A stretch of 64,000 nucleotides of DNA from Labilithrix sp. Its GTDB lineage: Bacteria; Myxococcota_A; Polyangia; Polyangiales; Polyangiaceae. The notes beneath the pieces are model-generated. The model ran no database searches. It saw only the letters and a program-made list of their open reading frames with translations, and had not been told where the DNA came from. The stretch is taken from positions 1-64,000 of the forward strand of contig JAQBQJ010000098.1 of the NCBI GenBank assembly GCA_028287065.1, in the 5' to 3' direction. A program made the position numbers and the translations under genes. Position 1 is the stretch's first letter. Each line of letters opens with the position of its first letter. This document shows positions 54,796 through 61,739 of the stretch, piece after piece.

Positions 54796-54883
54796 GAGAA
54801 CAGGAACAGGAACAGGAACGGGAACGAGAATTCTCGAAAAATTCTCGTTCTGATTCCTGTTCCTGTTCCTGTTCCCTGTTCTC
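54796..54883. repeat. Long imperfect inverted repeat built from GGAACA hexamers
   Basis: Left arm GAGAACAGGAACAGGAACAGGAACGGGAACGAGAATT, right arm ATTCTCGTTCTGATTCCTGTTCCTGTTCCTGTTCCCTGTTCTC. Confidence 0.85.
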
Positions 54884-54896
54884 TTTTGGATCCCTC

Positions 54897-55718
54897 TCAG
54901 GAGTTTTCCCGCGCCCCCAACAAAACCCCACGCTCCCCCAAATCCGCCAGCAGCTTCGCCGCGCCACCGACCACCGGCGCGTCCAGCGCAAACCCCTTCG
55001 CTGCGCACGCCTCGACCATCGCCTGCGCCAGCGGCCTCCCCTCGAACAGCCGCTCCAGGATCGCGCACGCCAGCGGCGTCAGATCCAGCATCCGCGTGCA
55101 GTGCTGCGCGTCGCGATACACGAGCAGGTCCACCGGCCGCTCCGCCGGCGTCGCTTTGACGTCGTCGCCCGCGAGCTCGTGCACCGCCCACCCCAGATGC
55201 ACGATCACGCGCGGGTCCCCGAACACCAGCGCGCGGTCCGCCGTCACGTCCGCGAGCGGCGGCGGAGGCGACGGGCGCGGCGCGACGCCGATCGTGAAGT
55301 CGACGAGCTCGAGCTCCGCATAATCGGTCAGCCACGCCGGGATGCGCGCATCCTTCCGCCACCGCGGCCCCACCCACGCGAGGAACTCGCTCGGCACGTC
55401 GCGCAGATGCGGCGTGCGCGGGCCGTGTGCCGCGAGGAATCCGTCGACGGAGCGATCGAGCTCGCCCGGCACGTGCGCGTCGAGTCGCGCGCGCGTGCGC
55501 TCGAGCATCATGCCGATCACGTTCACCACGTTGTGCCTCACGAGCTGCCGGTACAGCCCGAGCCGCCGCGGCGACGCGAGGATCGCCTCGGCATCCTCCT
55601 TCGCGACGCCATGACGCGCGAGATATGCCTCGAGATCGCCGCCGAGCGCATCGGCCGAATCGCCGAAGCACGCGTCCGCGAACAACGCGTGTAGGCCGTT
55701 CACGTCCGCGCCGCTCAT
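54897..55718 (-). CDS. DUF2063 / HvfC-BufC-like RiPP maturation partner protein
   Basis: N-terminal LYRQLVRHNVVNVIGMMLERTRARL resembles DUF2063; 4-bp overlap with MNIO gene. Confidence 0.72.
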   Translation of the reverse strand: MSGADVNGLHALFADACFGDSADALGGDLEAYLARHGVAKEDAEAILASPRRLGLYRQLVRHNVVNVIGMMLERTRARLDAHVPGELDRSVDGFLAAHGPRTPHLRDVPSEFLAWVGPRWRKDARIPAWLTDYAELELVDFTIGVAPRPSPPPPLADVTADRALVFGDPRVIVHLGWAVHELAGDDVKATPAERPVDLLVYRDAQHCTRMLDLTPLACAILERLFEGRPLAQAMVEACAAKGFALDAPVVGGAAKLLADLGERGVLLGARENS

Positions 55719-56659
55719 GCCGGCTTCGCGGTCGCCCGCGTCCAGATCGCCTTGACCTTCGCGATCTCCGCCAGCAGCTCGGACAGCGGCGGGATCGCCT
55801 GATCGCGCTCGAGCAGCACCGGCACCGGCCCCGTCTTCGCCAGCGTGCGCTCGAGCAGCGCGAGCACGTCGTCGCAGCAGTCCGCCCCGTGCGTGTCGAC
55901 GATCAGCTTGCCGTCCGTCTCGCGCGCGTCGCGCGGGACGTCGGTCGCCTTCCACTCGCCTTCGGTGAACCAGTCGTGTCCCGCGACGTGCATCTGCACG
56001 ACGCGATCGAGCGGCACCGTCGCCATCCACGCGTCGACGTCGAAGCCGAAGTTCGTCGCGTTCACGTACGCGTTGTTCACGTCGAGCATCAGCCCGCAGT
56101 CCGCCGCATCACACACGCGCGCGATGAACTCCGCCTCGCTCATCTCGCGCTTGCCGGGATGCAGATAGAAGCTCACGTTCTCGATCGCCATCGGCCGCCC
56201 GATCGCGTCCTGCGCGCGCTTGATCCGATCGGCGACGCGACCGACCTCGGCCTCCTTGAACGGGATCGGCAACAGGTCGTGCAGCACGACGCCCCCGAAC
56301 GTGCTGAAGCAGAGATGGTCCGAATGCCATGGGCTCTTCACGCGATCGAGGAACGCGGCGAGGCCCTTCAAGTAGTCCTCGCGCAGCGGATCCACGCCGC
56401 CGATGCTCATCGTGAGACCGTGCGTGACGATCGGCCAGAGCTCGCGCGCGCGGTCGAGCGCCTCGTCGTAGTACCCGCCGCGACCCATGTAGTTCTCGGG
56501 CGAGATCTCGACGAAGTCGAGCGCGGGCTTCTTTTCGAGGAGCTCGTCGACGAAGTCCCAGCGCAGGCCGAGCCCGACGCCGTTCACGCCTCTCGCTCCC
56601 GTCTTCTCTGCTCCGGCGGTACTCACGGAACACTCGTTTCGAAACGAAGGTGAGCCCAC
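55715..56659 (-). CDS. DUF692 multinuclear non-heme iron oxidase (MNIO; BufB/HvfB-like)
   Basis: GVGLGLR..FVEISPENYMGRGGYY; THGLTMSIGG; WHSDHLCFS; AIENVSFYL; LMLDVNNAYVNATN; HVAGHD. Confidence 0.9.
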   Translation of the reverse strand: MGSPSFRNECSVSTAGAEKTGARGVNGVGLGLRWDFVDELLEKKPALDFVEISPENYMGRGGYYDEALDRARELWPIVTHGLTMSIGGVDPLREDYLKGLAAFLDRVKSPWHSDHLCFSTFGGVVLHDLLPIPFKEAEVGRVADRIKRAQDAIGRPMAIENVSFYLHPGKREMSEAEFIARVCDAADCGLMLDVNNAYVNATNFGFDVDAWMATVPLDRVVQMHVAGHDWFTEGEWKATDVPRDARETDGKLIVDTHGADCCDDVLALLERTLAKTGPVPVLLERDQAIPPLSELLAEIAKVKAIWTRATAKPA

Positions 56660-56716: not shown

Positions 56717-57184
56717 TCACTTCTTCGCGCTGCACGTACCCGCGCCGCAGCTACCCGAGCCGCCCTTCTTGGCGGGCGCGGGCGGAGCCGCCGGCTTCTT
56801 GCCGGTGGTCGAAGCGGGCGCCGGCGTCGAACCGGTGACACCCTTCGCGTCTGCGGGCTTCGCATCCGCGGGCTTCGCGTCCGCCGGCGTCGCCGCGGCG
56901 GGCGTCGTCGCGGGCGTCGAGGCCGCCGCGCCGGTCGCGTCGGCCGGCTTCGCGTCCGTCTTGTGGTCGGCGGAGCACGTGGCCTCGCCGGCCTTGTGGT
57001 CCTTGCCCGCGCCGCAATGATTGGCGCCGTCGGCTGCCTTCTCGGTTGCGCCGCTGACCTCGTTCGCGTTCACGGGGGTCTTCGGTTCCTCACCGCCGCA
57101 CGCGGCCATGATCACGCCCGTGCCCAGGACGGCGAGCGCCGCCGTAATGCTCTCAAGACTCAGATTCGGTCGCATCCCTCTCAC
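56717..57184 (-). CDS. Putative bufferin/HvfA-like modified RiPP precursor with two Cys modules
   Basis: Signal-like N-terminus; NHCGAGKDHKAGEATCSADHK and C-terminal GSCGAGTCSAKK; immediately upstream of MNIO and DUF2063 genes. Confidence 0.7.
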   Translation of the reverse strand: MRGMRPNLSLESITAALAVLGTGVIMAACGGEEPKTPVNANEVSGATEKAADGANHCGAGKDHKAGEATCSADHKTDAKPADATGAAASTPATTPAAATPADAKPADAKPADAKGVTGSTPAPASTTGKKPAAPPAPAKKGGSGSCGAGTCSAKK

Positions 57185-57277: not shown

Positions 57278-58093
57278 TCAAGACTGCGGCGTAGCGCGAA
57301 GATCGAGTGTGATATCGGCCACCTCGGCCACCTTCGTACCCAGCAGATTGAACGCGCCCTTGGCGATTTTTCCGAAGCCGTCACGCGGTTTGACGTCGTG
57401 CTCGGACAGCGTCGCACGCAGCGGCTTCTTCGATTTGATCGTGAGCGAAGTCGGCTTGTCGGCCGCGGCGCCCGGCGGGTAATGGAACGCGACTTCGACG
57501 TCCGCATCGCGATCGACCTTGTGACCGTGAATCAAGAATTCGCCGTGCGTCGTCGCGGTGACGGTGCGGACCTCGTCGGCGCCGTCCTTCGTCGCGGCGA
57601 GCTTCGTGAGATCCGTCGCGCTCAGGTTGTCGATCGAACGGATCGCGTAGACCGCGTACTTGTTCGCGGCCTTGACGTCGTCCGGCAGCTTGCCTTCTTC
57701 GCCGTCGGCGACCTCGAGCCACGTGCGCGCGTGTCCGGTCTGCGTCTTGTCCTTGTCGGCCTCGCCGAACGTCTTCGTCGAGAGCGTCGTGAGATCGGCC
57801 TTCACCTCACCGCGCGTCTGCGCGAGGTTCATGAAGTCGACGTCGAGCGTGCCTGCCGCGCCGTCGGTGCCCGCCTTGATGTGCTCCTTCGGGGCCGGCA
57901 TGTCGATCGAGGTGCCGCTCTTCGGATCGATGACGAACTTCATCGACTTCGCGGACGGCGCGACCGTCGACGGAGCGAGCGAGCTTGCCGCAGGCGCGAG
58001 GTTCTGCGGTTTCTTGTCCTCGCACCCTCCCGCGCCTAGCCCGATGGCGAGTGCGATGGTCGGTACGACGATGACGGCGATCGCGCGCTTCAT
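57278..58093 (-). CDS. Lipoprotein, possibly YceI-like
   Basis: MKRAIAVIVVPTIALAIGLGAGGC; GTLDVDFMNLAQTRGEVKADLTTLST. Confidence 0.6.
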   Translation of the reverse strand: MKRAIAVIVVPTIALAIGLGAGGCEDKKPQNLAPAASSLAPSTVAPSAKSMKFVIDPKSGTSIDMPAPKEHIKAGTDGAAGTLDVDFMNLAQTRGEVKADLTTLSTKTFGEADKDKTQTGHARTWLEVADGEEGKLPDDVKAANKYAVYAIRSIDNLSATDLTKLAATKDGADEVRTVTATTHGEFLIHGHKVDRDADVEVAFHYPPGAAADKPTSLTIKSKKPLRATLSEHDVKPRDGFGKIAKGAFNLLGTKVAEVADITLDLRATPQS

Positions 58094-59456: not shown

Positions 59457-61739
59457 GTGGCGCAGCCGCCTTCCGTACAGACCGTCGCAAAAGGCGACGA
59501 GGACATGCTCGTCATCCCGGTGACCGGCATGACGTGCACGGCCTGCGCCAATCGCGTGCAACGTGCGATCGCCAAAGCGCCCGGCGTCGTCCGCGCCGAG
59601 GTGAGCTTCGCGACGCGCGCCGCGAAGATCACGCTCGACGATCCCACGCGCGATCTACCGAGCGCGCTCGATGCGATCCTCGGAGCGGGCTACGAGCCGG
59701 CCGCGAACGCCGAGCAGATCCTCTCGCGTCGCGGCGCGGCCGCCGCGGCCAAGATCGAGCGCGAACAGCAGCGTCGTGACGCGGGACGTGCGATCGCGGC
59801 GCTCGCGATCGCCGCACTCCAGATGCTCTTCAGCATGCCGATGATGGCCCACGGCGGGCGCATGATGCCCGGCCTCGCGGGTCCGGCGATGCACCCGATG
59901 CTGCGCTGGGCGCTCCTCGTATCGACGCTCGTCGTCATCGTCATCGCGCGCTCGTTCTTCGTGCGCGCGTGGTCCGCGCTGAAGCAGCGGACGGCGGACA
60001 TGAACACGCTCGTCGCCCTCGGGAGCGGCACCGCGTTCCTCTACTCCGCCGCCGCGACGGCATGGCCTTCGTGGTTCGCGACCGAAGCGCAGCTCCCCGA
60101 CGTCCACTTCGAGGCCGCGAGCTTCATCCTCGCCTTCGTGCTGCTCGGGCGCACGATCGAGGCGCGCGCGCGCTCCCGGACGACCTCCGCGCAGAGCGGG
60201 CTGCTCGCGCTCGTCCCTGCGTTCGCGAACGTGGTGCGCGACGGCCACGAGGTGCGCGTCGCCGCGAACGAGGTGCGCGCCGGCGACGTCTTCGTCCTCC
60301 GTCCTGGCGGTCGCGCGCCGGCGGACGGCGTCGTCACCGAGGGCTCGTCGCAGCTCGACGAAGCGCTGATTACGGGCGAGAGCCGCCGCGTCGCGAAGCA
60401 CGTGGGCGACGCGATCGATGCCGGCACCAAGGCCGTCGACGGGCTCGTGCACGTCCGCGCGGTCCGCACCGGAACGGACACGCGCATCGCTCGGATCGCC
60501 GCGCTCGTGGAGGACGCGCAGGCGACGCGCGCGCCGGTACAGCGCCTCGCCGATCGCATCGCCGCCTATTTCGCCCCGGGAATCGTCGCTCTGGCGACGG
60601 CATCTGCGCTCGCGTGGTGGCTCTTCGGACCGGAGCCGAAGCTCGTGCACGCGCTCACCACGTTCGTCACCGTCGTCGTCGTGTCGTGCCCGTGTGCGCT
60701 CGGTCTCGCCACGCCCACCGCGATCGCGACGGCGATCGGCCGCGCCGCGCAGCTCGGGATCCTCGTTCGATCCGGAGACGCGCTCGAGAGAGCGGCGCGG
60801 ATCGACACGGTCGCGATCGACAAGACGGGCACGCTCACCGAAGGCGAGCCGGCCGTGGTCGAGTTCGTCGCGCTCGGTGGCGCAGACGAGGACGAGGTCC
60901 TCCGCCTCGCGGCCGCGGTCGAGAAGGGCAGCGAGCATCCGGTCGGCGAAGCGATCGTCGCCGAGGCCGAGGCACGTGGCCTCGAGGTGCCGCCGATCGC
61001 GAAGTTCGTGGCGACGGCCGGGAGCGGCGCGCGTGCGGACGTGCGGGGCTTGGACGTGCGCGTCGGCGCGATGGCGTGGCTCGCGAGCGAAGGCATCACG
61101 ATGCCCGAGGGCGGAGCGCCCGACGCGGCCTTCGGCGTCGCGATCGACGGCGTGCTGCGCGGGCACGGCATGGTCGCCGACAGCCTGCGCGAGGACGCTC
61201 CGCTCGCCGTCGCGAAGCTGCATGCGATGAGCATCCGCGTCGTCGTCCTCACCGGCGACCGCGAGGAGATCGCGCGCGCGGTCGGGAAGGCGCTGCACGT
61301 CGACGACGTCCGCGCCGAGCTCGGTCCCGAGGGCAAGCTCGCGGCTCTCGACGAGCTCGCGAAGGAAGGACGCCGCGTCGCGATGTGCGGCGACGGCGTG
61401 AACGACGCGCCCGCGCTCGCACGCGCGCACGTCGGCATCGCGATCGGCTCCGGCACGGACGTCGCCATCGACGCGAGCGACGTGACGCTCCTCGAGGGCG
61501 GCATCGCTCGCCTCCCCGACGCGATCGCGCTCGCCCGCCGGAGCATGCGCGTCATCCGCCAGAACCTCGCCTGGGCGTTCGCCTACAACGTCGCGCTCAT
61601 CCCGATCGCTGCAGGCGCGCTCGTACCGTGGCTCGGCTACCGCATGCCCCCTGCCCTCGCGTCCGCCGCGATGGCCCTCTCGAGCATCAGCGTGGTGCTG
61701 AGCTCGCTCCGGCTCCGTCGCTTCTCGCCGAAGGCCTGA
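59457..61739 (+). CDS. copA: Copper-type P1B ATPase with one N-terminal HMA domain
   Basis: [50 protein letters not shown]; alternative ATG at 59505. Confidence 0.93.
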   Translation: MAQPPSVQTVAKGDEDMLVIPVTGMTCTACANRVQRAIAKAPGVVRAEVSFATRAAKITLDDPTRDLPSALDAILGAGYEPAANAEQILSRRGAAAAAKIEREQQRRDAGRAIAALAIAALQMLFSMPMMAHGGRMMPGLAGPAMHPMLRWALLVSTLVVIVIARSFFVRAWSALKQRTADMNTLVALGSGTAFLYSAAATAWPSWFATEAQLPDVHFEAASFILAFVLLGRTIEARARSRTTSAQSGLLALVPAFANVVRDGHEVRVAANEVRAGDVFVLRPGGRAPADGVVTEGSSQLDEALITGESRRVAKHVGDAIDAGTKAVDGLVHVRAVRTGTDTRIARIAALVEDAQATRAPVQRLADRIAAYFAPGIVALATASALAWWLFGPEPKLVHALTTFVTVVVVSCPCALGLATPTAIATAIGRAAQLGILVRSGDALERAARIDTVAIDKTGTLTEGEPAVVEFVALGGADEDEVLRLAAAVEKGSEHPVGEAIVAEAEARGLEVPPIAKFVATAGSGARADVRGLDVRVGAMAWLASEGITMPEGGAPDAAFGVAIDGVLRGHGMVADSLREDAPLAVAKLHAMSIRVVVLTGDREEIARAVGKALHVDDVRAELGPEGKLAALDELAKEGRRVAMCGDGVNDAPALARAHVGIAIGSGTDVAIDASDVTLLEGGIARLPDAIALARRSMRVIRQNLAWAFAYNVALIPIAAGALVPWLGYRMPPALASAAMALSSISVVLSSLRLRRFSPKA

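Follow-up and report, generated by a model that had tools for sequence, protein, structure and literature searches.

What kind of product is encoded by a small gene that lies next to an MNIO gene in Labilithrix sp. and carries two separate patches of cysteine behind a possible lipobox, and which of these patches is its core? The gene was found in the window, by which we mean the whole stretch of 64,000 nucleotides that was analyzed. The Cys modules that an earlier note had pointed out in the open reading frame at 56717-57184 are real, and NHCGAGKDHKAGEATCSADHK, PADAKPADAKPADAK and GSCGAGTCSAKK all read in the minus-strand translation as they were quoted there. The GTG at 57184, assumed in that note to be the start, overlaps a Shine-Dalgarno sequence (AAAGGAG) that lies 8 nt upstream of an ATG at 57175; since homologues from the genus likewise begin with MRPNLS, the ATG is probably the true start, and the precursor would have 152 residues, not 155. 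It is laid out as a signal peptide (residues 1-25), the lipid Cys26, a PVNANEV motif, an N-terminal module (52-72), a linker (73-138) and a C-terminal module (139-152), with four Cys in addition to the lipid Cys. A loose xEV-type pattern follows the lipobox in 73 of 97 precursors. Judged from sequence, this is a real and well-conserved MNIO precursor that is predicted to be lipid-anchored.

Table 1. Features of the locus, with their positions in the window
Feature	Position	Strand	Basis
HvfC-type partner (DUF2063 + NGO1945 C-terminal domain)	54897..55718	minus	Pfam matches; HvfC model E 9.1e-26, below cut-off
MNIO (MbnB/TglH/ChrH family), HvfB/BufB-like	55715..56659	minus	PF05114 E 1.6e-95; PDB 3BWW E 3.5e-52
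Precursor lipoprotein gene (152 aa)	56717..57175	minus	Translation, start-site inspection, homologues
C-terminal core GSGSCGAGTCSAKK, two 5-mers SGSCG-AGTCS (CxxxxC)	56720..56761	minus	60/60 homologues; dN/dS 0.21; period-15-nt repeat
Pro/Ala/Lys/Thr linker, repetitive, least constrained	56762..56959	minus	dN/dS 0.52 and 50% identity in genus; TRF period 15/45 nt
N-terminal Cys/His module NHCGAGKDHKAGEATCSADHK, accessory array, optional in family	56960..57022	minus	Cys there in 29/60 homologues
PVNANEV, local form of the post-lipobox motif PVxAxEVPA / TEVPA	57056..57076	minus	Many relatives across phylum
Lipobox Cys26, predicted lipidation site, +2 = Gly	57098..57100	minus	-1 A/G 60/60; +2 G/A/S/T 60/60
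Signal peptide MRPNLSLESITAALAVLGTGVIMAA, probably also leader	57101..57175	minus	dN/dS 0.16 in genus; 81% vs 33% identity
YceI-fold lipoprotein, directly upstream of precursor	57278..58093	minus	PF04264 in 38/42 homologues; pLDDT 89.5; PDB BcnA, YceI
P-type metal ATPase, HMA domain + CPC motif, CopA-like	59500..61739 (start approximate)	plus	Sequence/Pfam

The genes stand in an operon-like order, YceI-fold lipoprotein, precursor, MNIO and HvfC/DUF2063 protein, and the ATG of the last overlaps the stop codon of the MNIO gene. The MNIO to which the earlier note refers is indeed there, followed by its DUF2063/RRE partner of the HvfC type, both downstream of the precursor. Its match to PF05114 scores 319.8 bits (gathering score 25), and of the 106 aligned rows, which include 3BWW, the best-matching solved structure, no fewer than 105 keep each of H80, H115, E160, D193, N196, H224, D255, H257 and E284. 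By motif, N196, D255 and H257, kept in 105 to 106 of the 106 enzymes, are the counterparts of HvfB N175, D242 and H244, which are reported to be essential (PMC13419390). The scores against the NCBIfam equivalog models fall short of their cut-offs, at 287.4 bits against 310 for BufB and 284.8 against 360 for HvfB, as does the partner's match to the HvfC model; the partner does belong to the DUF2063/HvfC family (PME type 1) by PF09836 (31.8 against 27.2) and PF22106 (37.9 against 27). A scan for sigma-70-type promoters found nothing, and a terminator scan gave matches at chance level only. Just beyond the HvfC gene an inverted repeat, GGAACGAGAATTCTCG-AAAAATTCTCGTTCT, occupies window positions 54821-54851 near short repeats. 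The partner gene is on the opposite strand, convergent to that of the MNIO, in loci L043, L044, L046, L047, L049, L050 and L051. The same genome holds a second MNIO cluster (L001, G000:C343; precursor at about 934-1398, MNIO from 1501), whose precursor combines a lipobox with CKGxxxCKGQGGCK repeats of a Cys-Lys type unlike that in the window, and a third, distant MNIO (L003, G000:C521; 32% identity), upstream of which no Cys precursor was recognized.

MNIO homologues occur in 90 of the 108 genomes of the window's GTDB family, and named records place the enzyme beside those of Labilithrix and other Polyangiaceae. The open reading frames upstream of the MNIO yielded 60 distinct precursors in the family set. 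To be included, a frame had to encode a hydrophobic stretch ahead of a Cys and one or more additional Cys, and any count of lipoproteins is therefore conditional on this choice. A laxer rescan of the loci that had given no precursor detected no myxobacterial precursor lacking a lipobox; several loci yielded none, L027 and L133 provided further lipoprotein precursors with the C-terminal pair, and L118 another lipoprotein. All 60 precursors have a Cys pair (CxxxxC) near the C-terminus, with the consensus [AG][SGA]CG[AEQ]G[TS]C[GSA], after which a single residue remains in 33. Between lipobox and pair, 31 precursors have no Cys and 29 have one to seven, among them all nine members of the window's genus, each with at least one N-terminal Cys. 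The N-terminal module of relatives is often a tandem array with a period of 30 or 33 nt (10-11 residues), present in about 3.6 copies of HKAGEAGCSAG in L010, 4.0 in L016 and 7.6 in L054, and on the MNIO tree (105 rows, short search, LG+G4) its presence changes 11 times, at least 6 of them forced by well-supported branches. In the window, Tandem Repeats Finder reads GGSGSCGAGTCSA as a 15-nt repeat of 2.5 copies, which corresponds to the two 5-mers SGSCG-AGTCS. By crude Nei-Gojobori counts on a hand-defined split into segments, dN/dS within the genus is lowest in the signal peptide (0.16), followed by the C-terminal module (0.21), the N-terminal module (0.42) and the linker (0.52). Because the counts, the repeat periods, the changes on the tree and the dN/dS values all separate the two modules, we conclude, on sequence comparison, that conservation marks the C-terminal pair as the core, which is built of two 5-mers in tandem of the EGKCG/captophorin kind, and that the N-terminal patch is an accessory array. 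At the level of the family only one module is conserved, which the earlier note had itself named as an outcome that would speak against its model of a core in two halves.

Other myxobacterial precursors depart from this plan. L135, L126 and L136 encode lipoproteins with two spaced Cys patches, Ala/Pro/His-rich tails and no C-terminal CxxxxC. Lipoprotein precursors of the Nannocystis/Enhygromyxa type (L115, L124, L127, L140 and L147) have solely EGSCG-like, EASCS or EGSCK repeats, and several of them carry a TEVPA motif after the lipobox.

The possible MAAC lipobox of the earlier note is present as VIMAA/C and is conserved in all myxobacterial relatives found, with Ala or Gly at -1 and Gly, Ala, Ser or Thr, never Asp, at +2 in 60 of 60; Lgt was also found in the genome. 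Lipid anchoring, as predicted from the lipobox, is the rule in this group of precursors. Nor is it as unusual for a precursor as had been supposed: NedA is a lipidated (triacylated) MNIO-associated product (PMC12636315), and a lipoprotein signal is predicted for about 16% of the Buf2 precursors (PMC12452194). With a lipobox in a precursor that adjoins its RiPP enzyme, the locus has the sequence features of a DAG-RiPP, a hybrid of RiPP and lipoprotein whose N-terminal Cys, here predicted to be Cys26, would bear a diacylglyceryl group. The signal peptide is conserved far beyond the needs of export. In the same eight congeners its pairwise identity is 81%, as against 33% for the signal peptide of the adjacent YceI lipoprotein, with the same direction in 28 of 28 pairs, and the mature part of that lipoprotein is 68% identical; without gaps and over all genera, the two signal peptides could not be told apart in this respect (identity 0.25 vs 0.19), and it was the gapped alignment of the congeners that proved decisive. 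Such conservation is expected if the signal peptide is also the leader of the enzyme, and it fits the remark that the signal peptide of Buf1 is part of the recognition sequence (PMC12452194).

We suggest, with a probability of roughly 0.7, that the product of the gene is a precursor from which a lipid-anchored RiPP of the captophorin type is made, one that carries 5-thiooxazole and sequesters Cu(I). The product would be captophorin-like by its organization, from which we infer the thiooxazole and the copper. An MNIO and a PME1 protein adjoin a Cys-rich precursor whose export is predicted, and the C-terminal SGSCG-AGTCS, with its period of 15 nt, consists of 5-mers in tandem, the captophorin minimum of two, in each of which the fourth residue is Cys and the fifth is small. 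In these 5-mers, and in the order precursor-MNIO-DUF2063 with an exported Cys precursor, the locus resembles the captophorins or Buf_EGKCG-oxazolins (HvfABC, FonABC, NgoABC); it differs in having SGSCG-AGTCS or EGSCG in place of EGKCG, a single C-terminal pair behind a long linker, a lipoprotein signal throughout and a YceI-fold neighbor. The exact EGKCG motif, repeated in the Buf_EGKCG/oxazolin class, is absent from the window's precursor. Sequence support for the captophorin-type reading comes from relatives that grade into EGSCG repeats: the more distant myxobacterial members, Nannocystis and Enhygromyxa, have EGSCG-like repeats and no separate pair, and beyond the phylum most of the precursors found beside the nearest MNIOs (Acinetobacter and other gammaproteobacteria) are EGKCG-like and without a lipobox. 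FonBC forms 5-thiooxazole in EGKCG repeats, modifies a substrate of two repeats and not one of a single repeat, tolerates Thr, Ala or Arg before the Cys (position 3), prefers a small residue in position 5 and rejects charged residues after the Cys (PMC13097082). Gly, Ser or Ala directly follows 119 of 120 pair Cys (99%) and 83 of 88 array Cys (94%), against a background of 49%, which matches the FonBC preference; Lys follows 5 of the 88 array Cys.

On this reading HvfC would bind the precursor in the cytoplasm, recognizing as leader the unusually well conserved signal peptide, possibly together with the PVxAxEVPA motif, and the MNIO, an iron enzyme, would oxidize Cys, with loss of 4 H each, to 5-thiooxazole at SCG and TCS; array Cys followed by a small residue would probably be converted in the same way. 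The modified precursor would then be exported by Sec, lipidated at Cys26 and cleaved by signal peptidase II. By the general +2 rule of E. coli, Gly in this position directs a lipoprotein to the outer membrane, the probable destination of the mature product. The linker, presumably disordered, would hold the C-terminal pair away from the membrane, where its two neighboring thiooxazole thiolates could bind Cu(I), and the N-terminal array would offer further, expandable sites close to the membrane; tandem duplication would let its unit number drift, and the whole array could be lost.

The most serious alternative, possible though in our estimate the less probable account, is that the enzyme modifies the C-terminal pair only and that the N-terminal module (NHC...DHK...DHK) remains unmodified, as a metal binder with free thiols and imidazoles or as a spacer. 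The module is optional and less constrained, His co-occurs with Cys in members of the genus, and the two Cys of the window's module stand 14 residues apart, outside the 5-residue register, so that it may be a poorer substrate. The array Cys nevertheless keep the rule of a small following residue in the proportion given above, and regular EGSCG-like units are the only Cys of the distantly related Nannocystis-type precursors.

Several other MNIO products resemble the proposed one in part. NedA and other DAG-RiPPs (PMC12636315) are likewise formed from a precursor that is associated with an MNIO and has a lipobox for signal peptidase II; NedA has EGKCG motifs, whereas the precursors described here, from another phylum, have a C-terminal pair to which an array may be added, and their lipidation is predicted. 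The "CxxxxC" family, or cluster X (PMC12452194, PMC12636315), shares the signal peptide, which in cluster X is of the lipoprotein type, and the conserved CxxxxC motif; compared by description only, 54% of the published CxxxxC clusters contain Lactamase_B_2, which was not recognized as recurrent here, where YceI recurs. The bufferins Buf1 (DUF2282) and Buf2 (6 or 12 conserved Cys) employ the same kind of enzyme pair, but the window's precursor has no Pfam match to DUF2282 and only its lipid Cys and four more. Chryseobasin-type products (ChrH/DybA/ArlA) likewise have a C-terminal Cys motif, theirs recognized by an MNIO, and some are lipidated, one of them from Archangium (PMC12636315); their CPxCGxG is absent here, and the ChrH model matches the window's MNIO weakly (57 bits against a cut-off of 600).

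The proposed role in copper sequestration rests on precedent, since, beyond the window, the CopA-like gene adjoins the cluster in no more than the two nearest relatives; two others have a Na/H exchanger there, and neither linkage is used as support. More widely kept is the YceI-fold lipoprotein gene, which many loci of the Polyangiaceae carry directly ahead of the precursor gene. Among 42 homologues of this neighbor, 38 match PF04264 (YceI) at E<=0.1, some of them weakly, with 1.9e-6 as the lowest E. The copy in the window does not match PF04264 by sequence, and no PDB sequence was hit by a profile of the YceI-like family; comparison of folds did match, the predicted model resembling BcnA and E. 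coli YceI with E of about 1e-8 to 1e-7. The same RiPP might serve against another stress, such as zinc, gold, oxidants or damage to envelope lipids, the YceI-fold partner being the clue to function. We consider this unlikely: the YceI-fold gene is the only conserved and specific extra neighbor and the CopA link is not conserved, but the close products that have been characterized, namely oxazolin, fontiphorin, gonophorin and the bufferins, bind or respond to copper (PMC13097082, PMC12452194).

It is quite improbable that the lipoprotein is no substrate at all, being instead a Cys-rich anchored metal or redox protein, with the MNIO acting elsewhere. The strand reversal of the HvfC partner in some relatives and a linker that resembles an ordinary lipoprotein tether would suit such a protein, yet where the upstream sequence is long enough, almost every family locus has the precursor directly before the MNIO, the Cys context and the gene order A-B-C are the usual ones, and in a clustering of 61 loci the only recurrent genes recognized were those of the core, the YceI gene and members of a common kinase family.

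Least probable by far is the earlier note's proposal that a single core was duplicated into two halves, of which the second became condensed: CGAG and TCSA do occur in both modules as it said, and the CGAG codons differ at one base only, but the first module is missing from 31 of 60 homologues and the second from none, the relatives' arrays repeat every 30-33 nt and the pair every 15 nt, the Ser codons are TCC in one and AGC in the other although the GC bias of the gene leads one to expect shared codons, and the array is gained or lost at least 6-11 times along the tree, so that homologue counts, tree and repeat periods contradict the model at family level.

Relative to the literature searched, the C-terminal-pair architecture across Polyangiaceae, the conserved YceI-fold neighbor and the over-conserved signal peptide appear to be new. 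No paper joining YceI with MNIO was found in that search, and we regard the YceI-fold gene as a candidate partner of the MNIO cluster that this literature does not mention. We offer, as a tentative and somewhat doubtful extension, the idea that Polyangiaceae possess a distinct class of lipid-anchored MNIO peptides in which the lipoprotein signal peptide is the leader of the enzyme, modification being finished before export, and a dedicated YceI-fold lipoprotein works in the same envelope; if so, the latter might be, for example, a periplasmic acceptor, a lipid or quinone carrier or a copper handler for the modified tail.

The captophorin-type reading would extend copper-type MNIO peptides, studied mainly in Pseudomonadota, to the Myxococcota. 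The conservation of the signal peptide bears on a question of the field, namely what holds back a precursor bearing a Sec signal so that it can be modified before export. The family also provides a natural series of precursors, with 0 to 7 extra Cys ahead of one fixed C-terminal pair, that could be used to test how many sites the enzyme requires and what further sites contribute.
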